Assembly: GCA_030537875.1 (NCBI GenBank)
Contig: JAUNVC010000002.1
Span: 1 to 64,000, forward strand
Direction of reading: 5' to 3'
Origin: Tissierellia bacterium
GTDB taxonomy: Bacteria > Bacillota > Clostridia > Tissierellales > Peptoniphilaceae
DNA: 64,000 nt
The first letter of the stretch is position 1. Each line of letters starts with the position of its first letter. The notes beneath the pieces are model-generated. The model had not been told where the DNA came from, made no database searches, and saw only the letters and a program-made list of their open reading frames with translations. Both the position numbers and the translations under genes were made by a program. Shown one piece after another: positions 211-13,557 of the stretch.

Positions 211-1044
211 CTACACCTCATAGTAGTCCAAATGAAGGTTTGGTAATTTTTCTTCAATGACTTCATAGTCCTCAATGGATTTGGGAATATCCACATTTTC
301 TTTTTTCTTCACAGTGATTTGTCTATGAACCTTGGATGACGGATAATCTCCCAGTTTTGAATTATGTGTCCACCAGTACAATCTTTCCATGGTCATGGAT
401 CCATCTGGGCGCGCAGAAGATGCGTCGTTATCAAAAATAGTTCGTATGGCTTCTTTGATTTTTTCTGCATCTTCTTCATTAAAGCCAGTGATTTCGGACA
501 ATTGACAATTGATGCTTCCTTTCAATAGATATATTCCAAAATCGACTCTATGTTTCATCCCCATGGTGTCCGAGGATTTTTTCCCATCACTTGGTTCAGA
601 GTTAACTGATTTCGTTATCTGAAGACTCGTGATATCTACTGGATCCACAGAAAATGCTGAATGAATAGAAACGGGACCACGGACTCCTAGGGACATATTT
701 TCTTTGTCTTTAAAAGCAAACACCTGTCCAAAGGAGCGAACGTCAATCCATTCTTCACAGACCATCTTGCTTACTTCATCTTTGTCCTTGTTTCCTTTCA
801 CCAGATTTTTCATACGATCACTCAAGGAATTACACCCATCATCAGATCTTTCTTCCATTTGCACAAAGATCTTTTCTCCCATGTCTTGTAGACGATTACG
901 GATTTTCCTCTTTAAGCAAACATCCGAGATTTCTCCGTATCCCTCATAGTTCTCACGAGGTCTATTTCCTGTCAATGGATCTCCATTGGGGTTGGCATTG
1001 GTAACAGAGATAATTCCTACAAAATCGATTTTTTTATTGATCAT
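211..1044 (-). CDS. cas7: Cas7 (Csd2), type I-C Cascade backbone subunit
   Basis: 277 residues, the usual Csd2 length. Cas7 polymerises along the crRNA to form the backbone of the I-C Cascade. The N-terminus carries the hallmark FVGIISVTNANPNGDP stretch of the Csd2/Csh2 family, and a GMKHRVDFGIYLLKG core follows. Start chosen at ATG 1044 with GGAGG about 9 nt upstream; a TTG two codons earlier is less likely. It overlaps the end of cas8c by 11 nt, so translation is probably coupled. Next downstream is cas4, whose reading frame opens within the last codons of this gene. Confidence 0.95.
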   Translation of the reverse strand: MINKKIDFVGIISVTNANPNGDPLTGNRPRENYEGYGEISDVCLKRKIRNRLQDMGEKIFVQMEERSDDGCNSLSDRMKNLVKGNKDKDEVSKMVCEEWIDVRSFGQVFAFKDKENMSLGVRGPVSIHSAFSVDPVDITSLQITKSVNSEPSDGKKSSDTMGMKHRVDFGIYLLKGSINCQLSEITGFNEEDAEKIKEAIRTIFDNDASSARPDGSMTMERLYWWTHNSKLGDYPSSKVHRQITVKKKENVDIPKSIEDYEVIEEKLPNLHLDYYEV

Positions 1045-2905
1045 TTTCAACTTCCTCCTTTTTATTGAAAAATGCGTTCATTTGGTGACTGTATCCTAAG
1101 AGATATTCTCCACTCAATCCCTTATATGAATTGAAATCTTCCATTTCAAATTTATCCATAATTTCTTGCATGGTTTTTTCAAAACCTACCTTTCGATTAC
1201 CAGATAGGCTATTGAGATAGGGTAAAATCCTTTCGTAAATTTGCTTCCAGGTTCTCAAGGGCCGCTTAGAAAAAGCTTCCATCAACCTTTTTGCCGTCGT
1301 GGGTCGATCGATTCCCTTATCCCAATTGCTTACTTGTTCAATCCTATCGGCCACGGCAAGCAGCCTTCCAAATAGATAAGATCTGTTGGTAACATCTTTG
1401 TTCAATGCCATTCCGTAATCCACTCCCTTCCTTTCAATATAAAATTTTCTTACCATGCTACATGCGATGGCTAGATTTCTATTCCAGTTATAATCCGATT
1501 TTGTCATTGGTCTCGATGCCGTACGTATCAACGACTGGACAATATCCAACGGAACTCTTTTTTTCTCCAATATGCATGGTAGAAGTCTTTTTAGATGAAA
1601 TTTCATCATTTTATCTTCCAATTCCATGAAATTTCTTTGAACTCCGAAGGCATACAAAACAATATCCTGGGGCAATGGCGCCCCAATGAAGTTGATCCAT
1701 TCCTTTTCTTCGACTTTTTTAGATTGATGCCATGCGGCAGTTTCTTGCCAATATTTTAATCGTTCCAAATATTCGTCAATGGAATATTCCTGATAATAGA
1801 GAGTTGCCAGTCTTCCAGGAGTTGCAGCATCAAAGGATATAATTCTCACTCGGTCTTTTGTGTCTAGTTTCATCCGATATCCATCGATTGAAGCTCTCAA
1901 TCTCCTAGCAAACTCTTCTCCTGTTTCAGCTTTTTTTGCACTTAGTTGTTCCTCTGGATCAACCAAGGAGTCAAAGAAATTGTCCGTGGGTTGGAGAATA
2001 TTCTGCGCTTCATCAGTCCAAGCCAGTATCACAAGCCCATCTCTATTGTAGGCCTGTTTTTGAATGAGCCATCGTAAAGCCGCATGAGCTTTTTCAGAAA
2101 CTTCATAGCTAATTTGCGCACATTCATCCGCTTTTTTGAACCGGCCTTTAAACGTGACGATACTACTGTCGTTGGAAGATATGACTTTTGCAGAGTCTCC
2201 TGCATTTCGTATATATTTTCCATGAAGACTTGTAATGTACGCTTCTTCCCCTTTGATATAACACATGCCATGGCCTTGTTCATTTAATTTGGATAGATAG
2301 TAGTCTCCGTATTCTTTCATCAATTCCCTATCATTCCATAGTTCGTGGCTTCGTCCGCCCACTAAAATTTCAAATCGGAAGAAAATTTTGGATTGTACAA
2401 TTGAAGAAATCTTGTCCTCTGTAAGCTTACCATCTTCATTTAAGGTGAGAATATTTGCATCAATTAAGTCTTTCGTCAATGTTTTTTTGCTTAAATACTT
2501 GAATAGAATTTCCAGATAGGGATTTCTCCCAAAGGTAAGCCATTCTTCTAATTGCTCCATATAGGGCACGAAATTTTTGTTATAAGGGTCGTCTTTTGCT
2601 TTTGTAGACTCATAATAGGTTTCAAAGTCACCTGCCATATACCATATATTGTCGAAAAGAGGATGAGGTACTGGGCCTGCTGTTCGGGCTGCAGATGATA
2701 TCGTCACAGGTATAATCGTTACGGCATCTTCCTTTGGAATCACATCGGCAGATACAAAATCCCCATCTTCATCAATGGTGACCTTCACCTGTGCATTCTG
2801 AGTGATAGTTCCCACGGGAAGTAATCTTGCCTTGCCTTCATAAGTAGCCTTCCCACTCTCCATCACATGATCATAGGTTTTGTATAAGTTATATAAGTAA
2901 CTCAT
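1034..2905 (-). CDS. cas8c: Cas8c (Csd1), type I-C Cascade large subunit
   Basis: 623 residues, beginning MSYLYNLYKTYDHV. This is the large subunit of the I-C Cascade, responsible for PAM recognition and R-loop formation. In many I-C systems an internal start in this gene also yields the small subunit (Cas11c); an internal site was not specifically identified here. Features typical of Csd1 include the N-terminal LPVGTITQNAQVKVTIDEDG segment and the later GRSHELWNDRELMKEY and YNRDGLVILAW motifs. It shares a 4-nt overlap with cas5c upstream and overlaps cas7 downstream, consistent with one transcript. Confidence 0.93.
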   Translation of the reverse strand: MSYLYNLYKTYDHVMESGKATYEGKARLLPVGTITQNAQVKVTIDEDGDFVSADVIPKEDAVTIIPVTISSAARTAGPVPHPLFDNIWYMAGDFETYYESTKAKDDPYNKNFVPYMEQLEEWLTFGRNPYLEILFKYLSKKTLTKDLIDANILTLNEDGKLTEDKISSIVQSKIFFRFEILVGGRSHELWNDRELMKEYGDYYLSKLNEQGHGMCYIKGEEAYITSLHGKYIRNAGDSAKVISSNDSSIVTFKGRFKKADECAQISYEVSEKAHAALRWLIQKQAYNRDGLVILAWTDEAQNILQPTDNFFDSLVDPEEQLSAKKAETGEEFARRLRASIDGYRMKLDTKDRVRIISFDAATPGRLATLYYQEYSIDEYLERLKYWQETAAWHQSKKVEEKEWINFIGAPLPQDIVLYAFGVQRNFMELEDKMMKFHLKRLLPCILEKKRVPLDIVQSLIRTASRPMTKSDYNWNRNLAIACSMVRKFYIERKGVDYGMALNKDVTNRSYLFGRLLAVADRIEQVSNWDKGIDRPTTAKRLMEAFSKRPLRTWKQIYERILPYLNSLSGNRKVGFEKTMQEIMDKFEMEDFNSYKGLSGEYLLGYSHQMNAFFNKKEEVENDQ

Positions 2906-3609
2906 ACCTCCACCTCCTCTTCTACGGATCGCAGATTCTGTCCTAGCACAAATTCCTTTTTGCTTCCCTTTTTAATCACCCGCCGCACGGAGCATTCTTC
3001 GGCTTTTGGAAAGGTGATGATTCCATATTCCATAGTGGGATGCCAAAAATGAGCTATAAGCTCGCCCTTCTCATTTTGATCTGGATAGGAGAAACTATGA
3101 AATGATAATCCATAACTTAGCTCTGGAGTTTGATCATAGGCCCCTTTCTGTTTTCCAAATTCTATGGGCTCCGCATAGCCCTGGCATTCTCTAGTTCCAA
3201 GGAACACATCTCTTCTTCCTCCCTTTTCAAGGGAACGTTGGGCCATGAAAAAATGTTTGTTTTCATTTCTATCATGACTCAAATCATCCCTCCAAAGATT
3301 CCATTCAAAATGTGCTTCCACTTCATACTCCACGTTCCGTAGATAGGTGTAGTAAGCGAGGTCACTTTTCCCGTCCAGCCTCCTTAACTTTGTTCCAACT
3401 GTTTCCGTTTGAATTGGTTGGATAATTCGTACCCTATCGATGATCCATTGGATGGTAGGTTTCCAATATATGGAGCTTGCCATACCAACCAAAGATTCAT
3501 AGGTTGGAATGTGGTAGGAAAATTTTTCCCCTCCAAGTTTACTTTCCGGTGTTGTAAAAAGTGCCCTTCTTCCAAAAACACTGAAAGTAATTTTATTTTC
3601 TTTCTGCAT
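2902..3609 (-). CDS. cas5c: Cas5c (Cas5d), crRNA-processing subunit
   Basis: 235 residues. In type I-C systems, which lack Cas6, the Cas5 protein cleaves the pre-crRNA and caps the 5' handle. The N-terminus (FSVFGRRALFTTPESKLGGEKFSYHIPTYESLVGMASSIYW, written here in pieces by motif: RALFTTPE, KFSYHIPTYESLVGM) matches the Cas5d RAMP fold. A HFFMAQRS segment sits in the mid-protein region where the catalytic Lys/His of characterised Cas5d enzymes lie; I cannot assign the exact residues. It starts 11 nt after the cas3 stop and overlaps cas8c by 4 nt. Confidence 0.92.
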   Translation of the reverse strand: MQKENKITFSVFGRRALFTTPESKLGGEKFSYHIPTYESLVGMASSIYWKPTIQWIIDRVRIIQPIQTETVGTKLRRLDGKSDLAYYTYLRNVEYEVEAHFEWNLWRDDLSHDRNENKHFFMAQRSLEKGGRRDVFLGTRECQGYAEPIEFGKQKGAYDQTPELSYGLSFHSFSYPDQNEKGELIAHFWHPTMEYGIITFPKAEECSVRRVIKKGSKKEFVLGQNLRSVEEEVEV

Positions 3610-3620
3610 ATTCGCCTCCT

Positions 3621-6020
3621 TTATAATACAATGGTTTCCATAAACCCTTTTTCAGTATTCAATCCAGTTTCTTCATCATAATAATTCTCTTTTAATATAT
3701 ACATTCCATACTCTTCTAAAAAGATAAGAGCACCCTTCTTACAGAGCTCCTGTATTGTATATTCATATACGTTAATTGAATAGTTTTGTACCTTTCGTAT
3801 CAATGCATATGCTTCATGTATACTCGTGGAATTGGACAAGAGATCGGCAATGATTTCTTTTCCTTTGCCATAGGGAACAATAACTCCATGGCCTGCGTTT
3901 TCAATGGCTTGAAATGACTCCCCGGCCGTTAAAAAACTTTGTTGTAATACATGGTTGATGTTGGAAGCCATCTGGCATTCGGCTAACAAATTTAAAATTG
4001 TAGTTTGTTTCCCTTCATAATGTGTCACACCTTCTATGTTTTTATAATAATCTTTAAAATACATATCCAACATAATGTCACTTAACATTCTCTTATATCG
4101 CTCTGGATGTTTTTGAAAGTCTATTAATTTGGCTTTGGCTTTTTCTTTCCCTCTACGAACTTCCATAAGCTTTTCTGTATTTTCCAAATGAGAATCTAAT
4201 TCCACAAGGTAGAGATGTCCACCACCCTTCAGTTCGTTGTGACGATTGCATCTACCACCTGCCTGCACGAGAGAATCCATTTTTGAAAGAGACCGAATCA
4301 CCGTACCTACGGATAGATCAACTCCTGCTTCAATTAAATTGGTGCTAATAATTATATGGGGCTCAGAGATTTTATGTCCACGAATTTTTTCTAAAATTTT
4401 TCTTCTGTGAGCTACACACATGTTATTAGACAAATGATATAGAGGAATATCCGTTTTTTTACATAGAGAATCGTATATTATCCTCGCGGCTTTCCTCGTG
4501 TTGACAACACATAGAACACTTAAATGTTCCTTTTGTTTTTTCATGAGAAGCTCTGATAATGTATCTTCCGTGTAAGGAGGATGTTGTAAGAGAGAATGGG
4601 TCTGAAATCTTTGGAACACAACCTCTTCTCTATAGTCTTTCGTTAGATAGGGATTGTCACTATATTGGATGAGCGCCAATTGTTTTTCCTGTGTTCTATT
4701 TTCCTCCGCTGTTGGAATGGTGGCTGAACAAATGACAAATGTAGTATCAAAGAACTTGTTCAAAGCATTGATCGCCAAATGGAGAAGGGAGAGAGATTTT
4801 AAAGGTGCTGACTGAATTTCGTCGATGATAATCACAGAGTTCTGAAATCTATGCAATCTACGCAAGGCCTGTTTTGAGGATGAGAAAAGTGAATTTAAGA
4901 ATTGGACAAAAGTGGTCAAAATAACGGGAGCCGCAAAATTCTCTGAAATATATTTTTTCGCTTCCGAATCACAATCATGGGTTCCACCGGTGTCATCTTG
5001 CACCAAATTGCTATGGTATTCTAAAATATGGGGTTGAATACTCTTGGAAGAAAACATGGCATGATATGTGTCGGCATTCTGCTCTAGAATACTGATATAG
5101 GGAGATAGATAAAAGATTCTTTGCTTCTTATGTTTTTTGGCATGATGCAATGCAAATCGCATGGCGGCAACGGTTTTCCCTGCACCTGTTGGAACGTTCA
5201 GTTTATAGACTCCCGTTTCTCTGCCAGCACTCTCCTTGCATTCATCTGATATTTTTGTTCGTAGTGTATTCATATCATTGTTGGCAGAAAAATTCTTTTC
5301 AATATAACCCTCAAAGTCTTCAACGGCTTTTTCCCAAGAAAAGTTGTTTCTTAAACGAGTGTACGCTTCTTCATAAGAACCTTGTAGGGAAGCCGAATCG
5401 GTCCAGTCCGCATCAATAAGCATAGACAAAAACATTCTTGTGATAAAACTCATATCAAAACCCATCACATCTGGTTTTTCTTTTTTGTCTTTAGGATATT
5501 TTTTTGCAAAACTAAAAGCGACTTTCTTCATAGTATCATCATAGAGATTTTCTAATCTATCCCTTTGCTTAATAGAAAAGTAATTCCCTAGAGTTTCTTC
5601 CGTTGTTTCTAAACTTTTTTCTCTAAAAATCTTTTCATCTAAACAATGAATTTTCTTCTCTTTATCCTGACAGTCAAATAATCCATGATGTGCTCCTATG
5701 GCATATTCCATCATATCTTGAAACAGTAAATTCCCAAGATGTTTTTTCTCGTCTGGAAGAGCTTCCCAAAATTTTCGCAAAATAAACATGCCCGTCCTAG
5801 AATGTGGTGGTAGTTTCGACTTCCCATTAAGCAAATCTCTTTGCCAGTCTGGGTTGGCTTTCCCCGCATCATGTAAAAGACCCAATAATTCCAACAAAGG
5901 CTTACATTCTTCCCATTGACAAAAGTCTCTAGCTCTACGCCCTACTCCTTCCAAATGACTCTCTAAACTTTGGATTAAAATTTCATCTTCATATTCAATT
6001 CTTCTCGCTATAAACTCCAT
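3621..6020 (-). CDS. cas3: Cas3, HD nuclease-helicase of type I-C
   Basis: 799 residues. Cas3 is recruited by Cascade to nick, unwind and degrade target DNA. The HD nuclease domain is N-terminal: His22, His50-Asp51 in LLHDAGKANPDWQ, then a GAHHGLFDC motif near residue 116. The SF2 helicase follows, with Walker A PTGAGKT near residue 275, the Walker B variant IIIDEIQSAP, CSATIP (motif III), ISTNLIEAGVDLS and QAGGRCNRH (motif VI). All expected catalytic motifs are present, so the protein looks active. cas2 ends 12 nt upstream and cas5c follows after 11 nt. Confidence 0.97.
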   Translation of the reverse strand: MEFIARRIEYEDEILIQSLESHLEGVGRRARDFCQWEECKPLLELLGLLHDAGKANPDWQRDLLNGKSKLPPHSRTGMFILRKFWEALPDEKKHLGNLLFQDMMEYAIGAHHGLFDCQDKEKKIHCLDEKIFREKSLETTEETLGNYFSIKQRDRLENLYDDTMKKVAFSFAKKYPKDKKEKPDVMGFDMSFITRMFLSMLIDADWTDSASLQGSYEEAYTRLRNNFSWEKAVEDFEGYIEKNFSANNDMNTLRTKISDECKESAGRETGVYKLNVPTGAGKTVAAMRFALHHAKKHKKQRIFYLSPYISILEQNADTYHAMFSSKSIQPHILEYHSNLVQDDTGGTHDCDSEAKKYISENFAAPVILTTFVQFLNSLFSSSKQALRRLHRFQNSVIIIDEIQSAPLKSLSLLHLAINALNKFFDTTFVICSATIPTAEENRTQEKQLALIQYSDNPYLTKDYREEVVFQRFQTHSLLQHPPYTEDTLSELLMKKQKEHLSVLCVVNTRKAARIIYDSLCKKTDIPLYHLSNNMCVAHRRKILEKIRGHKISEPHIIISTNLIEAGVDLSVGTVIRSLSKMDSLVQAGGRCNRHNELKGGGHLYLVELDSHLENTEKLMEVRRGKEKAKAKLIDFQKHPERYKRMLSDIMLDMYFKDYYKNIEGVTHYEGKQTTILNLLAECQMASNINHVLQQSFLTAGESFQAIENAGHGVIVPYGKGKEIIADLLSNSTSIHEAYALIRKVQNYSINVYEYTIQELCKKGALIFLEEYGMYILKENYYDEETGLNTEKGFMETIVL

Positions 6021-6032
6021 CTTCCACTCCTG

Positions 6033-6326
6033 TTAAAATATAAATGCATCGTTTTCTGGATCGTAGCTATCATCTTTCCCCATGGTTTCCAGTTTAACTT
6101 GCCAATTCTTACCTAAGCGATAAAAGCGCAAGCTATCCTTTTCTTCATCCATGATCTGCCGCAATTTTTCTTTAAGTATAAGATATTCTGAAGGACTAAC
6201 CAAGCATTCAAACACTGAATTCTGAACTCGTTGCCCCACATCTTCACAAGCTCTCGCTACTTGTCGCAACCGTTTTTTTCCAGCTTGATCTTCTGTATTC
6301 ACATCATAGGTAACTAATATCATCAT
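6033..6326 (-). CDS. cas2: Cas2, spacer-acquisition subunit
   Basis: 97 residues, a typical I-C Cas2 in full length and sequence: MMILVTYDVNTEDQAGKKRL at the N-terminus (first beta strand with the conserved Asp), the RVQNSVFECLV core and the EKDSLRFYRLG strand. Cas2 forms the dimeric centre of the Cas1-Cas2 integrase. Position is unusual: it is the first gene of the operon, upstream of cas3, whereas I-C loci normally end cas4-cas1-cas2. cas4 is at the other end, so the adaptation genes are split. No strong Shine-Dalgarno site is visible. An AT-rich stretch with TATATAAAAT at about 6340-6350 may be the operon -10 region. Confidence 0.93.
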   Translation of the reverse strand: MMILVTYDVNTEDQAGKKRLRQVARACEDVGQRVQNSVFECLVSPSEYLILKEKLRQIMDEEKDSLRFYRLGKNWQVKLETMGKDDSYDPENDAFIF

Positions 6327-6928: not shown

Positions 6929-7408
6929 ATGTTAAAAAAATTATTTGGACTAAAAACAATCAAGGCTCATTGCGATATCCCCTGTGGTATTTATGATCCC
7001 ATTACAGCGCAAATCGCGGCCATCACCACGGTTCGTATGATGGATCAGATGAAAGATATTTTGGAAAGCGATCACACAGAAATGGAAAAGAGAAATACCT
7101 TTGCCCGTTTGGTCGCCGTAAAAGAAGAACACGCCGAGAAGGCAAAGCATGAGATTCGTGTCATCTGGGGTGATTTCATAAAAGCCCCCCAATTGGAAAA
7201 GTATCCCGAGCTCCACGAGCTGACCCATGATATTATGATGCTCGGTTCCAAGGTCAAGCAGGGCGTCAATCGGGAAGATGCTGTCAAGTTCTTAGAGAAG
7301 ATCAATGAATTTGCAAAAATATTCTGGGAAATCAAAGGAGAGGAAACGGTCACCGCTGAGGCTCCCTATCCTCCCAAGCTCCCCATCGTATATAGAAAAG
7401 TAAAATAG
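6929..7408 (+). CDS. sodN: Nickel superoxide dismutase precursor (SodN)
   Basis: 159 residues. Ni-SOD converts superoxide to O2 and H2O2 in a homohexamer. The N-terminal nickel hook is unmistakable: after a 13-residue leader comes HCDIPCGIYDP, giving His14, Cys15, Cys19 and Tyr22, equivalent to His1, Cys2, Cys6 and Tyr9 of the mature Streptomyces enzyme. Cleavage between Ala13 and His14 by a SodX-type peptidase is required in the family to expose the His1 amine; no sodX is visible next to this gene. The rest is helical, ending with a PYPPKLPIVYRK tail. Start supported by AGGAGG 7 nt upstream. Monocistronic, with its own terminator. Ni-SOD is best known in actinobacteria and cyanobacteria, so its presence in a Firmicute suggests transfer. 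Confidence 0.93.
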   Translation: MLKKLFGLKTIKAHCDIPCGIYDPITAQIAAITTVRMMDQMKDILESDHTEMEKRNTFARLVAVKEEHAEKAKHEIRVIWGDFIKAPQLEKYPELHELTHDIMMLGSKVKQGVNREDAVKFLEKINEFAKIFWEIKGEETVTAEAPYPPKLPIVYRKVK

Positions 7409-7500: not shown

Positions 7501-8253
7501 TTATTTCTTCCCAATGCATAGGGCTTTTCCGATATAGTCTTTCAGTCCCAATCCATATTCCCATTTGAGAGCATAGGCATCGGTGACTTCTTCGTTCTTG
7601 ATAAACACTGTTTCAAATCCAGCCGCCCCCATGAGTTCTTCTAACTCTTCCAACTGAAGAGCTCCTCCCACTCATGTGCCGTAGAGGTTCTTCGCCTCCC
7701 TCAACTCTTTGGAGAGTTCTTTTTTTAAGATCACATCCGAAAGAATACAAGTTCCTCCCGGTTTTAGTACGCGATAGATTTCTTTATAAACGGATTGTTT
7801 GTCCGGCTCCAAGTTGATGACACAGTTGCTGATGACATGGTCCATGGTGTTCTCCTGAAATGGTAGGTCCACCAATGTGCCCTGTCGAAATTCCACCCTT
7901 TCAAATCCTTTTTTCTCTGCCACATTCCTTGCTTTTTCAACCATTTCTTCCAACACATCCACACCATAAAACACCCCACCCTCGGGGAATTTTATCCTTG
8001 CAAGAAATACGTCCATTCCTGTACCCGATCCCAAGTCAAGGAGCGTTTCTCCTTGTTTTACAATGAGGTTTTCCAAAGGGTTGCCACAGGAAAGACCTAG
8101 TTTGACCTCCTCTGGCAATAACGCCAATTCGGTTTCATCATATCCAAGGGAGCGATAGAGTTCATCGGCGGTGATACTGGTTTTTTCTTCTCCGGTGGAT
8201 ACCTTCTTGTAAAATTCCTTCACTTCTTTTCGTATTTGATCTTTCTTTGTCAT
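7501..8253 (-). CDS. arsM: Arsenite S-adenosylmethyltransferase (ArsM-like), probable selenoprotein with UGA at codon 194
   Basis: 250 codons if UGA at 7674-7672 is read through. It is a Rossmann SAM methyltransferase with LDLGSGTGMD (residues 72-81), GVDVLEEMVEKAR, SNCVINL with Cys144, and VLKPGGTC. Cys56 (SCGNP) and Cys144 are two of the three conserved ArsM cysteines. The third, normally in a C-[VI]-x-G-A motif 50 residues later, is here the UGA codon: YGT-UGA-VGGALQLEELEELMGAAGF. The frame continues for 56 sense codons with family-like sequence to a TAA just before a terminator. A SECIS-like hairpin lies right after the UGA. Start at ATG 8253 with an AGGAGG-like site; a longer upstream frame would run into the divergent ArsC-like gene. 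ArsM methylates As(III). The alternative is a nonsense mutation. Confidence 0.85.
7643..7671 (-). promoter_or_regulatory. SECIS-like hairpin after the arsM UGA
   Basis: Immediately 3' of the UGA the message folds as an 8-bp stem, AGCUCUUC pairing with GAAGAGUU, closing a five-base AGUUG loop. The loop G lies 18 nt after the UGA. Bacterial SECIS elements bound by SelB have a small apical loop with a G in the first two positions, about 16-37 nt downstream of UGA, which fits. Confidence 0.75.
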
Positions 8254-8325
8254 ACTTCCTCCTTTTTTTATTATATCACTCCCATCCATGGGATAAAAGG
8301 GTATAAGAAATAAAGGAGGTAGATC

Positions 8326-8673
8326 ATGAACATATTGATTGGATATAAAAAATGTTCCACTTGCAGAGATGTAGAGAAATTGCTGGAACAAAAGAACTGG
8401 GACTATACCTTTCGTTCCATTGTGGAGGATACCCCTACAAAAAAGGAATTGAAACAATGGCACCAAGCATCGGGGCTTCCCATTGGACGTTTTTTTAATA
8501 CTTCGGGTATTCTCTATCGAGAGATGAACTTGAAAGATAAAAGACCCCACATGCGTGATGAAGAAGCCTATGCCCTTCTTGCCACCGATGGAATGTTGAT
8601 AAAGCGGCCCATCCTACTGCATGATGACGAAATCTACGTCGGTCCCGATGTAAAGAAATTTTTGTCCAAATAA
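8326..8673 (+). CDS. ArsC/Spx-family thioredoxin-fold protein
   Basis: 115 residues. The N-terminal YKKCSTCRDVEKLLEQKN motif (CxxC at residues 10 and 13) and the RPILLHDDEIYVGPD segment place it in the ArsC/Spx/YffB family of thioredoxin-fold proteins. Members include glutaredoxin-coupled arsenate reductases and Spx regulators. The length and the CSTC motif fit the Spx/MgsR-like YusI subgroup of Firmicutes as well as ArsC. Divergent from the arsM-like gene with only 72 bp between starts, so the two probably share a promoter region. A link to arsenic is suggested by that neighbour but not shown. Start supported by AAAGGAGG. Confidence 0.8.
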   Translation: MNILIGYKKCSTCRDVEKLLEQKNWDYTFRSIVEDTPTKKELKQWHQASGLPIGRFFNTSGILYREMNLKDKRPHMRDEEAYALLATDGMLIKRPILLHDDEIYVGPDVKKFLSK

Positions 8674-8707: not shown

Positions 8708-10969
8708 CTAATATTCTATACTTGGTAGGGCAATTTCCACGGGATCTTCTTCAATGAGCTCTTGCCACCAGTCTTCCTCTTGAGGAATTTCCCCTTGTTT
8801 TACCATTTCTTTCCATTCATCATCATTGAGCCGCTCATCTGCCAAGAATTCATAGACAGAAAATACGGAACCCCGTCCAATGTAAAGTTCATCCCCTAGA
8901 GGGAATAGGGCAAAGATGGCTCTCGGGGAGGCTAATCCCACCGTCCAGATAGCATCTTCTGGAATCCCCCAAGTGTTTTCCGGCGTCATCATGAGATCTG
9001 CCACAATGTACATATTCTCATCAGAAAAATCAAAGACCCACATATCTTCATCCATGGGGAAGAAATTCATGATGATTCGTTCCATGATTCCTGCAATGAA
9101 ATCCAATGTATGGCTTTCATCCTCGGTAAATTCTTTTCCTTCTAATTCCTTTATAGAAGCGTCTCGTATAATCTCCAAAGTTTCTTGGAAATATTTTAAG
9201 TTTTCCACAAGTCGTTCATTTAATAAGCCCCTCATATCGAGGTTTTCCCTTGAAAATTGAACCAGCCAAGCAAGTTTATTATACAGGTTCACATTGGGCT
9301 CCACATAGTTGACTCTTTCTGGAAAGAATCCACCTTTTTCCGCCATGGTCTGCTTTCCATAGAGTAGGGTATCATGTTTGAGTTCAGCCCAAGAACCAAG
9401 TCCTGCATTTAGGTCCTTATACTTCCATTCCTTACTCTGCATAAAATGAGGGTATCCCTCTCCCCACGCAGGGGTTAGTTCCATAAGAGTCCAGAGCCAT
9501 CCACGGTAGAGGTTTTTCTTCCAGTCTTCCTCTTTCATGGAAGCGACCTTTTCCTTGGTTTCTTTATATCTCTTTTCATATAAATCCCACTTTTTATTTC
9601 TCTCATCGGCCATTTGCAACTCTTCTGCGGCCTTCATCCCAAAGACCCCGAAGAGGTCTTTTCCACTATAAATGGGGCGATTGGACGGTTTTCCCGGCTC
9701 TGCAATGTCCAAGAGTTGTTGCATCCACACGTTGTCGATGACCGCCCTCTGACTCATAAATCGGAAAGACTGACCTTTGAAATCCCCAATGCTTGGTTTG
9801 GGAAGTCTATCAAGTCCGCTATACGCAGCATCCATCTTTTTATCATCAAAGAGTTCATTTAAATTTGGATCTTTTCCATAGACTCCATAGAGAAGGGTGG
9901 CAAAATCCTTCACCTCCAAGTCATCGGAGGTTTCCACCAAAAAGTCGATGGGGTCGTGGACAAGACTCCACATACGATAGGAATATTCATTGTTGGTAAT
10001 TATATGTGTCATGAGAAGGGCTCTGACAAGGGCATCCTCATCTCTTTGTCCCGTATTCATATCCACAGGGAAAAATCCAGCCTGTCCCATGTACATCACG
10101 GCCCTGAAATATTTTTCGAGGTCTTCACTCTTGGTGTAATGGCCCCTGGGTTTCATTTGACTAAAATCCATGTCCATATCCATCACATCGGAATAGGTGG
10201 GAGTCTGTGCTTCAATTTTTTCTATTTCCTCTTCTGCCATGGCAATGGCTTCATCGGGGATGGTCGGGAAATCAGGCACGCCTCCCGTGACAAGTCCTTT
10301 GATGGTAACAAAGTATCCAATATTTTTTAAAGCCAAATCCTTGGTTCTTTCATCTTCCAAAGCCTCATATTGGTTGATTGCATCGCCCATCATTCCATCG
10401 GCAAGCTCTTCCAAGGCCGGTAAAAGCTGATTGGCTTCCAAGTCCATGAGGAAGTTATCATAAAAGAGGTGGAACACATGGAGAAGAGAATCTGTGGTAA
10501 TAAAGTTGGGTACACCACTGTATTCGTTCTCATCATACACCTCATGCATATGTTTATGAAGATTGCTCTCAAAACCATAGTCATTGGAAAGTTTCTCTCC
10601 GATGAAAAATCCTCTATCCACCAAGGCTTTCTTTTGGGCCGCTGTCAAACTTGGGAATAAACTTATGTTGGCCACATCGGATAAATCTGCCTTGGGGGTC
10701 CGGTCCTTCAAATTGGGTTGAAACTTTGCCGGGGTGTAGGGCACCTCCACCGATACATCATAGTCATCGAGAAAGGCGCTGGCTGCATCGTCAATTTCTA
10801 TCGCATCGATATCTTCTTTTTTCTCATCCTCCCTTTGTTTTGAATCTTCTTTCTGTTCTTCCTCTTGCTTTGTTACATCTTCCTTATCCTTGGGTTTTTT
10901 ACACGCAGTGAGTGGAAAAACAAGCGCCATCACCATGAGGATGGCTAGCAGGATACTTATTTTTTTCAT
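8708..10969 (-). CDS. DUF3160 family lipoprotein, copy A
   Basis: 753 residues. A lipoprotein signal peptide (MKKISILLAILMVMALVFPLTACKK, lipobox LTAC with Cys23) is followed by a charged Lys/Glu/Asp-rich linker to about residue 55, then a large globular domain. Segments such as PNFITTDSLLHVFHLFYDNFL, DMDFSQMKPRGHYT and GRGSVFSVYEF are typical of DUF3160 proteins, whose function is unknown. It is probably anchored to the outer face of the membrane. A paralog (copy B) and a remnant of a third copy lie directly upstream, so the three arose by tandem duplication. Start ATG 10969 with GGAGGG 6 nt upstream. Confidence 0.88.
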   Translation of the reverse strand: MKKISILLAILMVMALVFPLTACKKPKDKEDVTKQEEEQKEDSKQREDEKKEDIDAIEIDDAASAFLDDYDVSVEVPYTPAKFQPNLKDRTPKADLSDVANISLFPSLTAAQKKALVDRGFFIGEKLSNDYGFESNLHKHMHEVYDENEYSGVPNFITTDSLLHVFHLFYDNFLMDLEANQLLPALEELADGMMGDAINQYEALEDERTKDLALKNIGYFVTIKGLVTGGVPDFPTIPDEAIAMAEEEIEKIEAQTPTYSDVMDMDMDFSQMKPRGHYTKSEDLEKYFRAVMYMGQAGFFPVDMNTGQRDEDALVRALLMTHIITNNEYSYRMWSLVHDPIDFLVETSDDLEVKDFATLLYGVYGKDPNLNELFDDKKMDAAYSGLDRLPKPSIGDFKGQSFRFMSQRAVIDNVWMQQLLDIAEPGKPSNRPIYSGKDLFGVFGMKAAEELQMADERNKKWDLYEKRYKETKEKVASMKEEDWKKNLYRGWLWTLMELTPAWGEGYPHFMQSKEWKYKDLNAGLGSWAELKHDTLLYGKQTMAEKGGFFPERVNYVEPNVNLYNKLAWLVQFSRENLDMRGLLNERLVENLKYFQETLEIIRDASIKELEGKEFTEDESHTLDFIAGIMERIIMNFFPMDEDMWVFDFSDENMYIVADLMMTPENTWGIPEDAIWTVGLASPRAIFALFPLGDELYIGRGSVFSVYEFLADERLNDDEWKEMVKQGEIPQEEDWWQELIEEDPVEIALPSIEY

Positions 10970-11250: not shown

Positions 11251-13557
11251 TTAATATTCGAAATATTTGCTATCAGGCTCTTCAAACTCAAAGGGTTCTT
11301 CCTCTAAAATTCCATCCAGCCAGTCTCCCTCTTCCGGCAAGTCCTCTGCTCTGGCTTTCTTTCTCCATTCTTCATCATTCAAACGAGTGGGAGAAATAAA
11401 TTCATACACCGAAAATACGGAGCCTCGTCCGATGAAAAACTCATCTCCCACGGGATAGACCACATAGATAGAACGAGGTGTGGCCAAACCAATGGAATAA
11501 AATTCTCCTTCTTTCAGTCCCCATGTGTTTTCAGGTACAGTCATAAGGTCGGCGACCAAACACATATCTTCATTGTAATCCAACATGGTCCAATTCTCAT
11601 CCGACAAACGTAAGAAATCTAAGATGATATATTCCATCTCTCCACCAATATAGGCAATCCTTTGATAGTCTTCCTCCGTTACTTCTTCACCTGTAAGTTC
11701 TTTGATGGATACATCTCGCAAAAATTCCAATTGATCCATGTAGCGTAACAGTCGTTCTCTGGTACTTTCTCTCAAAAGGCCTCTTGCGCTTAAATTCTTC
11801 TCTGTATAATCGGTTAGCCAAATCAATTTATTGTACAGTTCCACATTGGGCTCCACGTATCCTTTTTGCAATTCTAGCACAAAAGATGGTCCACCCATTT
11901 GTGCTACCACCTGTTTCCCATAGAGAAGGGTATCATGTTTGATTTCAGCCCAAGAGCCGAGTCCAGCGTTTAGGTCCTTTTTCTTCCATTCTTCGCTCTG
12001 CATAAAGTGAGGATATCCTTCTCCCCACTCGGGGGTCAGTTCCGTAAGAGCCCAAAGCCATCCACGGTAAAGATTTTTCGTCCAGTCTTCCTCTTTCATG
12101 GAAGAGGCCTTTTCCTTGGTTTCTTTAAATCTCGTTTCATATTGATCCCATTTTTTATTTCTTTCATCGGCCATCTGTAAATCTTCTGCAGCCTTCATCC
12201 CAAAGACTCCGAAGAGGTCTTTCCCACTATAAATGGGGCGATTGGATGGTTTTCCTGGTTTCCATATCTCCACTAGATTTTGCATCCATACATTATCTAT
12301 CACAGCGCGCTGGCTCATAAGGCGGAAAGAATACCCTTTAAAACTTGCAATTTTTGGAGCTGGCAAAGACACTAAGTAGTCATAGGCCTTGTCCATTTTG
12401 TCTTCTTCCAACAATTGATTCAGGTCGGGGTCCTTTCCATAGACTCCATAAAGTATGTTGGCAAAATCTTTAATTTCTAAATCATCGGCCGTTTCAACAA
12501 GAAAATCAATGGGATCGTGGGCACGACTCCAAAGCCGATAAGATTCTTCATTATTGGTCGTAACATGGGTCATGAGAAGGGCTCTAGCGAGGACATCCTC
12601 ATTTCTTTGTCCCGTATCCATATTCACAGGGAAAAATCCTGCCTGTCCCATGTACATCACAGCTTTAAAATATTTCTTAAGGTCTTCACTCTTGGTGTAA
12701 TGGCCTCTGGGCTTCATTTGACTGAAATCCATGTCCATATCCATCACAGCGGAATAGGCGAAAGACTGTGCTTCAATATTTTGTAGTTCTTTTTCCGCCA
12801 TGGCGATGGCCTCGTCGGGAAGGATTGCAAGGTCGGGAGTCCCACCTGCGAGAATTCCCTTGATCGTAGCAAAGTAGGCCAAATTGTACATTGCCAATTC
12901 CTTCAACTTCTCATCCTTTACATTCTCGTACTGCTTTGCCCCGTCAGCAATCAAGTGATCGACTAACTCTTCTACGGCCGGCAATAGTTCTCTTGCTTCC
13001 AAATCCATGAGGAAATTATCATAAAACAAGTGGAAAATTTGAAGAACAGAGTCCGTGGTAATAAAGTTGGCAACATTTGCATATTCGTTTTTATCATAGA
13101 CTTCATGCATGTGACGATGAAGAGGATCGTCCATGGAATATCTAAATTTTAGTCTTTCTCCAATGAAAAAGCCCTTATCCACCAAAGCCTTCTTCTGATC
13201 TTCACTCATATTGACGAAAAGGTCTCTGTTTTTGACATTGGATAAATCCTGATTTGGGCCTTGGTTGGGAAGACTTGGAGAGATTTTAATGGGAGTATAG
13301 GGAACCTCAACGGCCTCGTCATATTGATCTAAAAAATCTCCTGCTCCCTCATCCATTGTATTCCCAGTATCTTTTGAATCCTTGTCCTTGGAATCCTCTT
13401 TTTGGGAGTCATCTTTCTTCGCTTCGTCATCCTTTGTATCGACCACGGTGGAGTCTTTTGTAGGATCATCCTTCTCCTTGGGTTTCTTACATGCCGAAAG
13501 CGGCAACACCACTGATGCAATCAAGACGACAACGAGTAATAAGCTTATTTTCTTCAT
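11251..13557 (-). CDS. DUF3160 family lipoprotein, copy B
   Basis: 768 residues, paralogous to copy A over its whole length. Lipobox LSAC near residue 23, then an acidic/Lys-rich linker with Asp-Ser-Lys repeats (residues 26-66), then the DUF3160 domain with the motifs NFITTDSVLQIFHLFYDNFL (19-mer core), MDMDFSQMKPRGHYTKSEDL and GRGSVFSVYEF. Conservation with copy A is high in the central third and low in the linker, as expected for a spacer. Function unknown; extracytoplasmic location inferred from the lipobox. The next gene upstream overlaps by 4 nt, suggesting cotranscription. Confidence 0.88.
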   Translation of the reverse strand: MKKISLLLVVVLIASVVLPLSACKKPKEKDDPTKDSTVVDTKDDEAKKDDSQKEDSKDKDSKDTGNTMDEGAGDFLDQYDEAVEVPYTPIKISPSLPNQGPNQDLSNVKNRDLFVNMSEDQKKALVDKGFFIGERLKFRYSMDDPLHRHMHEVYDKNEYANVANFITTDSVLQIFHLFYDNFLMDLEARELLPAVEELVDHLIADGAKQYENVKDEKLKELAMYNLAYFATIKGILAGGTPDLAILPDEAIAMAEKELQNIEAQSFAYSAVMDMDMDFSQMKPRGHYTKSEDLKKYFKAVMYMGQAGFFPVNMDTGQRNEDVLARALLMTHVTTNNEESYRLWSRAHDPIDFLVETADDLEIKDFANILYGVYGKDPDLNQLLEEDKMDKAYDYLVSLPAPKIASFKGYSFRLMSQRAVIDNVWMQNLVEIWKPGKPSNRPIYSGKDLFGVFGMKAAEDLQMADERNKKWDQYETRFKETKEKASSMKEEDWTKNLYRGWLWALTELTPEWGEGYPHFMQSEEWKKKDLNAGLGSWAEIKHDTLLYGKQVVAQMGGPSFVLELQKGYVEPNVELYNKLIWLTDYTEKNLSARGLLRESTRERLLRYMDQLEFLRDVSIKELTGEEVTEEDYQRIAYIGGEMEYIILDFLRLSDENWTMLDYNEDMCLVADLMTVPENTWGLKEGEFYSIGLATPRSIYVVYPVGDEFFIGRGSVFSVYEFISPTRLNDEEWRKKARAEDLPEEGDWLDGILEEEPFEFEEPDSKYFEY

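Follow-up and report, generated by a model that had tools for sequence, protein, structure and literature searches.

A predicted selenocysteine-containing ArsM methyltransferase of a Tissierellia bacterium, with UGA at the third conserved cysteine

Arsenite S-adenosylmethyltransferases (ArsM) that contain selenocysteine (Sec) are a listed selenoprotein family. In the accessible portions of PMC9312934 and PMC13188914 the arsenite S-adenosylmethyltransferase selenoprotein (WP_011987699.1) is tabulated as experimentally verified, and these entries refer to Fomenko 2007. The available text of one survey gives 41 such selenoproteins in 39 organisms (PMC5029168), and that of PMC2398784 gives 8 selenoproteins in 4 ocean samples and extends the family to eukaryotes (as methyltransferase in the available part of PMC2375036). 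In a 64,000-nucleotide stretch from a Tissierellia bacterium (contig JAUNVC010000002.1, positions 1 to 64,000; hereafter the window), an arsM-type gene of 250 codons has been identified at 7501..8253 on the minus strand, with UGA as the codon of the third conserved cysteine. Judged from sequence, the gene is an ArsM family member whose UGA the host SelA, SelB, SelD and tRNA-Sec probably translate as selenocysteine, a reading to which we assign a probability of about 92%. The novelty of a Sec-type ArsM that was implied by an earlier note on this DNA does not hold, as full-length members already stand in public records. What is new is modest: the single origin of the Sec form among the sampled sequences, and the extent of annotation error in their near relatives.

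The gene was recognized by its sequence, its match to NF008823 (arsenite methyltransferase) and its predicted fold. All its elements lie on the minus strand. Direct reading of the sequence reveals a Shine-Dalgarno-like AAGGAGG (8258..8264) preceding the ATG start (8253-8251), from which the frame runs through 193 codons to UGA194 (7672..7674) and then through 56 sense codons to a TAA (7503-7501). Codon 194 is the sole in-frame UGA and lies 50 residues past Cys144, in the context YGT-U-VGGAL. A terminator-like hairpin followed by a T run was found by folding directly 3' of the TAA (7493-7468; -12.4 kcal/mol, with 1 of 200 shuffles equally good); a consensus terminator scan of the window lists three other terminators and not this hairpin. 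The 250-residue reading matches NF008823 with 235.4 bits (E 8e-70) and does not reach the curated cut-off of 263, which is a naming threshold and no defining trait of the enzyme. The same cut-off is missed by the near relatives P0014 (a Cys form), P0026 and P0003, and reached by P0122, P0107 and P0119.

According to the available part of PMC3877260, C72, C174 and C224 of CmArsM bind arsenite, and the C174A and C224A mutants are inactive. Cys56 (8086..8088), Cys144 (7822..7824) and residue 194 of the window protein align with the CmArsM cysteines of the YGCG, SNCV and YGECLGGAL motifs. Counting along the alignment, Cys144 corresponds to C174 and residue 194 to C224, and Cys56 is taken as C72; all three arsenic-site positions are present when Sec is counted as the equivalent of Cys. 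Cys56 and Cys144 are both Cys in each of the 121 aligned rows, and the nearest matches of the predicted S-adenosylmethionine methyltransferase fold are ArsM structures. The earlier note had placed the UGA at the third conserved Cys, 50 residues past Cys144, and had described a same-frame continuation of 56 codons to a TAA and a terminator; the CmArsM alignment bears out the former, and the frame together with the folded hairpin the latter.

The UGA is not confined to the window. An ArsM match is present in 57 of the 249 genomes of the order. In 37 of these an ArsM gene is interrupted by a single in-frame TGA, and 24 have a TGA-free match (4 of these also have the UGA form). The DNA was read for 29 of the 37, the other 8 being known from the count alone, and in all 29 the TGA stands at the third-Cys site. 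A chance UGA is excluded because of this recurrence at the same site across genomes. An unfiltered recount of the site in 140 rows, in favour of which an earlier tally pre-filtered for Cys or UGA was discarded, gave 98 Cys codons, 41 TGA codons (38 distinct genes) and 1 unreadable partial locus. Alignment with Cys-containing homologues, which the earlier note had proposed as a check, sets the UGA on a position that is TGC, TGT or TGA in 139/139 readable rows. Among Bacilli, 24 of 398 genomes have a match, and the one UGA form there is that of the Falseniella genome on which the search was centred. A contig scan with a single-protein query returned no match; with an alignment query it returned 582 relatives, and the best 80 of 582 were kept, hence it is no census.

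The sequence behind the UGA is also retained. In 35 of 35 UGA loci a tail of 56-65 codons extends up to the next TAA or TAG, and the decay in relatives that the earlier note had considered is not seen. In close pairs of these loci, changes in the tail fall mostly at third codon positions, and in the predicted structure the tail makes two strands. An in-frame UGA at the Cys position of homologues and a conserved tail, as looked for in a bacterial selenoprotein, are both found here.

The host has a complete set of Sec genes. In its genome (G000; 1.19 Mb, 72% complete), selA, selB, selD and selC (tRNA-Sec, anticodon UCA), all four of which the earlier note had named as a check, are clustered on contig C42 (locus L127, G000:C42:11400-19000) in the order selD, selA, selB, a response-regulator-like open reading frame (ORF) and selC. 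The host selD has an in-frame TGA of its own, at SGUAAK. Since selA, matched in 163 of the 249 genomes of the order, is without a match in the other 86, its presence here is informative. It was found in 37/37 genomes with a UGA-type ArsM compared to 126/212 others (Fisher 3e-8, uncorrected for kinship), so that no UGA form in these 37 genomes of the order occurs without selA. It was further found in all six named UGA genomes (Falseniella ignava, Clostridium magnum, C. senegalense, Paraclostridium benzoelyticum, a Clostridium metagenome-assembled genome and Faecalicatena contorta) and in one of the four Cys-form genomes tested alongside them.

Thirteen genomes of the family, each of which has selA, encode a longer ArsM-like protein with open frames of 355-377 codons (G026-G029, G032, G044, G045, G056, G076-G078, G093 and G106). 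Several genomes of these genera that have no selA lack this protein, and its third site is Cys in the two members read (L129 and L130).

A predicted selenocysteine insertion sequence (SECIS) hairpin, with a stem of 8 pairs and the loop AGUUG, is located at 7663-7643, eight bases from the UGA, and its loop begins at the 17th base past this codon. It was assessed with a hairpin score for a G within the first two loop bases and a loop start at position 18-26, with a threshold of 10; the limits of loop and spacing were chosen after inspection of the sequences, following the energy test, and the score is therefore support and no proof. For the window gene the score has p 0.022 against synonymous shuffles. 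The scoring set consisted of 131 rows, reduced to 122 once near-copies were removed; L127, L128, L047, L060, L137, L129, L130 and rows that had an unreadable site or fewer than 66 bases were omitted. The threshold is reached in 28 of 29 non-redundant UGA loci compared to 14 of 93 Cys loci, and p < 0.05 against synonymous shuffles in 14/29 and 2/93, respectively. Folding energy differs in the same direction (mean z -0.87 for UGA loci, -0.06 for Cys loci, p 2e-5), which is weak as a SECIS test. The five-base GU-loop hairpin that the earlier note had described at SECIS spacing is accordingly recovered, with limits set post hoc and weakly by energy.

Certain results weigh against decoding of the UGA as Sec. 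The free energy of the window hairpin is unremarkable (z -1.51, with 16 of 200 shuffles as good), also against synonymous shuffles (p 0.225). Moreover, the remaining 20/20 ArsM carriers of the order hold selA too, so that among carriers the presence of this gene does not separate UGA from Cys forms.

The genomic neighbourhood bears on the substrate. ArsR is the family most frequently matched among the 111 flank ORFs of 35 UGA loci, with 10 members (flanks of 1.5 to 3 kb, some of the loci being close kin; 112 ORFs were listed, and the one omitted from the scan overlaps the arsM region of L018). In 10 of the 35 loci arsM is preceded on its own strand by an ArsR-type ORF, directly in nine and with an intervening gene in one. 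On three Paraclostridium plasmids arsM is accompanied by arsR and a metallophosphoesterase or phosphodiesterase gene, and on two of these by acr3 as well; U196 was read in one of these records, the other two are UGA rows in the tree, and all four Paraclostridium loci fetched have the UGA. In the window no ArsR gene is located upstream of arsM and no ars genes adjoin it, and acr3 was searched for in the genome and not found. Divergent from arsM across its start, at 8326-8673 on the plus strand, lies a gene for a Spx/MgsR-type (arsC-related) protein with a CxxC motif, which scores above its own cut-off and far below that of arsenate reductase. The bare locus, the missing acr3 and the score below the NF008823 cut-off would all suit a selenoprotein methyltransferase whose natural substrate is another metalloid or an organometal; this is unlikely, given that the three arsenic-site positions are all retained and that clade members have an ArsR-type ORF upstream or are found in ars operons. 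Arsenic as the substrate is thus suggested by family, fold and clade, and not by the window locus.

Another explanation is that the UGA is a true stop, leaving a pseudogene or a methyltransferase of 193 residues. Among the 119 closest database relatives (best 120 of 7,563 scored hits, own entry excluded), 90 terminate precisely at this codon, 20 have W and 9 have Cys at the site; the stop codons behind the 90 entries were not seen. The tail is also somewhat less conserved than the part preceding the UGA. A plain stop or decay would nevertheless be very improbable, and was ruled out by the tail data and the recurrence of the UGA: tails of 56-65 codons are kept throughout, change mostly at third positions and are predicted to form two strands of the structure, short-form matches in the order have no stop or one TGA (the lone TAA is in a long-form relative), and the host has the complete Sec gene set. 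Reading of the UGA as Trp (code 4 or suppression) is hardly credible and was rejected, since the 20 W entries, whose DNA was unseen and which probably result from gene calling with table 4, stand against a site that in DNA is never TGG and against the Sec genes of the genome.

With UGA194 as a predicted Sec codon, the ending of 90 of the 119 relatives at this position indicates that the Sec form is often mis-called as truncated. The truncated database entry of the window gene is corrected here, and the same error appears common among near relatives. One database ArsM named Gemella sanguinis (P0113) ends at the same codon. The literature search gave no matching title for Gemella, and the name is absent from the available text of PMC5029168; an ArsM ending at this codon in this genus would be an anomaly if the genus is without selenocysteine genes.

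In a tree of 136 rows, with U coded as C and a bootstrap not fully settled, the 38 UGA rows all group in a single clade (100/98) that requires one change from Cys. As U was coded as C, the UGA column does not drive this clade. A quicker tree (of lower support and without bootstrap), to which nine database Cys proteins were added, requires 4 changes, or a minimum of 3 judging by the starred branches. Two of the nine join the Cys outgroup, and the others, e.g. P0014, sit among UGA rows; such Cys proteins within the UGA clade read as a return to Cys. The switch from Cys to Sec would then be a single event in the sampled tree, with some branches apparently reverted. A phage origin of the gene was also considered and rejected: no match at E 1e-20 was found among 50,697 phage records, and of the 5 relatives found on viral contigs, 4 were placed in the tree, all with Cys, and the fifth is a partial locus.

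In the mechanism proposed for the predicted selenoprotein, the hairpin that begins eight bases past the UGA would retain SelB and its Sec-tRNA at this codon, and the ribosome would then read 56 more codons. As(III) would be bound between Cys56, Cys144 and Sec194 and receive methyl groups from S-adenosylmethionine, after which a reductant would reset the enzyme. By analogy with Cys enzymes, the selenolate may fill the role of CmArsM Cys224 as an arsenic ligand, perhaps forming a selenylsulfide with Cys144. Selenium at this site might alter affinity or rate, as the earlier note had suggested.

More tentatively, and with the balance somewhat against it, one ancient Cys-to-Sec switch may have founded an ArsM branch of Bacillota (Tissierellia, Clostridia and an Aerococcaceae member). 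Many strict anaerobes might then need a supply of selenium in order to methylate arsenic, and cultured Paraclostridium methylators might use a Sec enzyme overlooked because gene callers cut at the UGA. In the available parts of these papers, PMC9213503 leaves open why ArsM expression is confined to Clostridiales fermenters, and PMC12124457 terms the factors driving methylation poorly understood. A literature search of titles and opening abstracts returned nothing tying Paraclostridium methylators to selenium. The stem "selen" is absent from the available text of PMC12124457 and occurs 4 times in that of PMC9213503, where the occurrences shown are Selenomonadales. If the isolates of these two studies carry the UGA, selenium supply would be a direct and testable control on methylation. 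The Sec clade with nested Cys forms, as arranged in the quick tree, offers an ordered test set.

Other genes of the window were identified around arsM. Just past its end, at 6929-7408 on the plus strand, a gene matching TIGR02753 (166 bits) encodes a nickel superoxide dismutase, in which HCDIPCG is preceded by a short leader. Genes matching Cas2, Cas3, Cas5, Csd1 and Cas7 occupy 211-6326 on the minus strand; we take this CRISPR-Cas make-up to be type I-C, and, as the window begins at a contig end, additional cas genes may be missing from it. On the minus strand at 8708-10969 and 11251-13557, two adjacent genes encode similar lipoprotein-like proteins, the first of which is for the most part covered by a match to DUF3160.

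Compared to the known Sec ArsM, the window protein is likewise an ArsM family protein with one predicted Sec in a UxxG motif. The difference is in sequence only, the window member, like three near relatives, scoring below the NF008823 cut-off. The plasmid arsM of Paraclostridium bifermentans has Sec196 at the same site and is already annotated at full length; it sits in an ars operon (arsR, a metallophosphoesterase-type gene, and acr3 in two of three records), whereas the window gene does not. The solved Cys enzymes, CmArsM and human AS3MT, are alike in fold and in the three arsenic-site positions, but the window gene has UGA instead of their Cys224 and Cys206 codon, respectively, and its 250-residue product stops at about CmArsM residue 279, without the remainder. 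The ArsM fusions NF041537, NF041536 and NF047649 are selenoproteins with an ArsM-like domain, as the window protein is predicted to be. In contrast to the window protein, with one domain and one UGA, they possess an additional domain and have two or three Sec (numbers from the available part of PMC13188914), and the window protein matches NF041536, NF041537 and NF047649 with 146, 147 and 135 bits, below their cut-offs of 575, 510 and 460, respectively.
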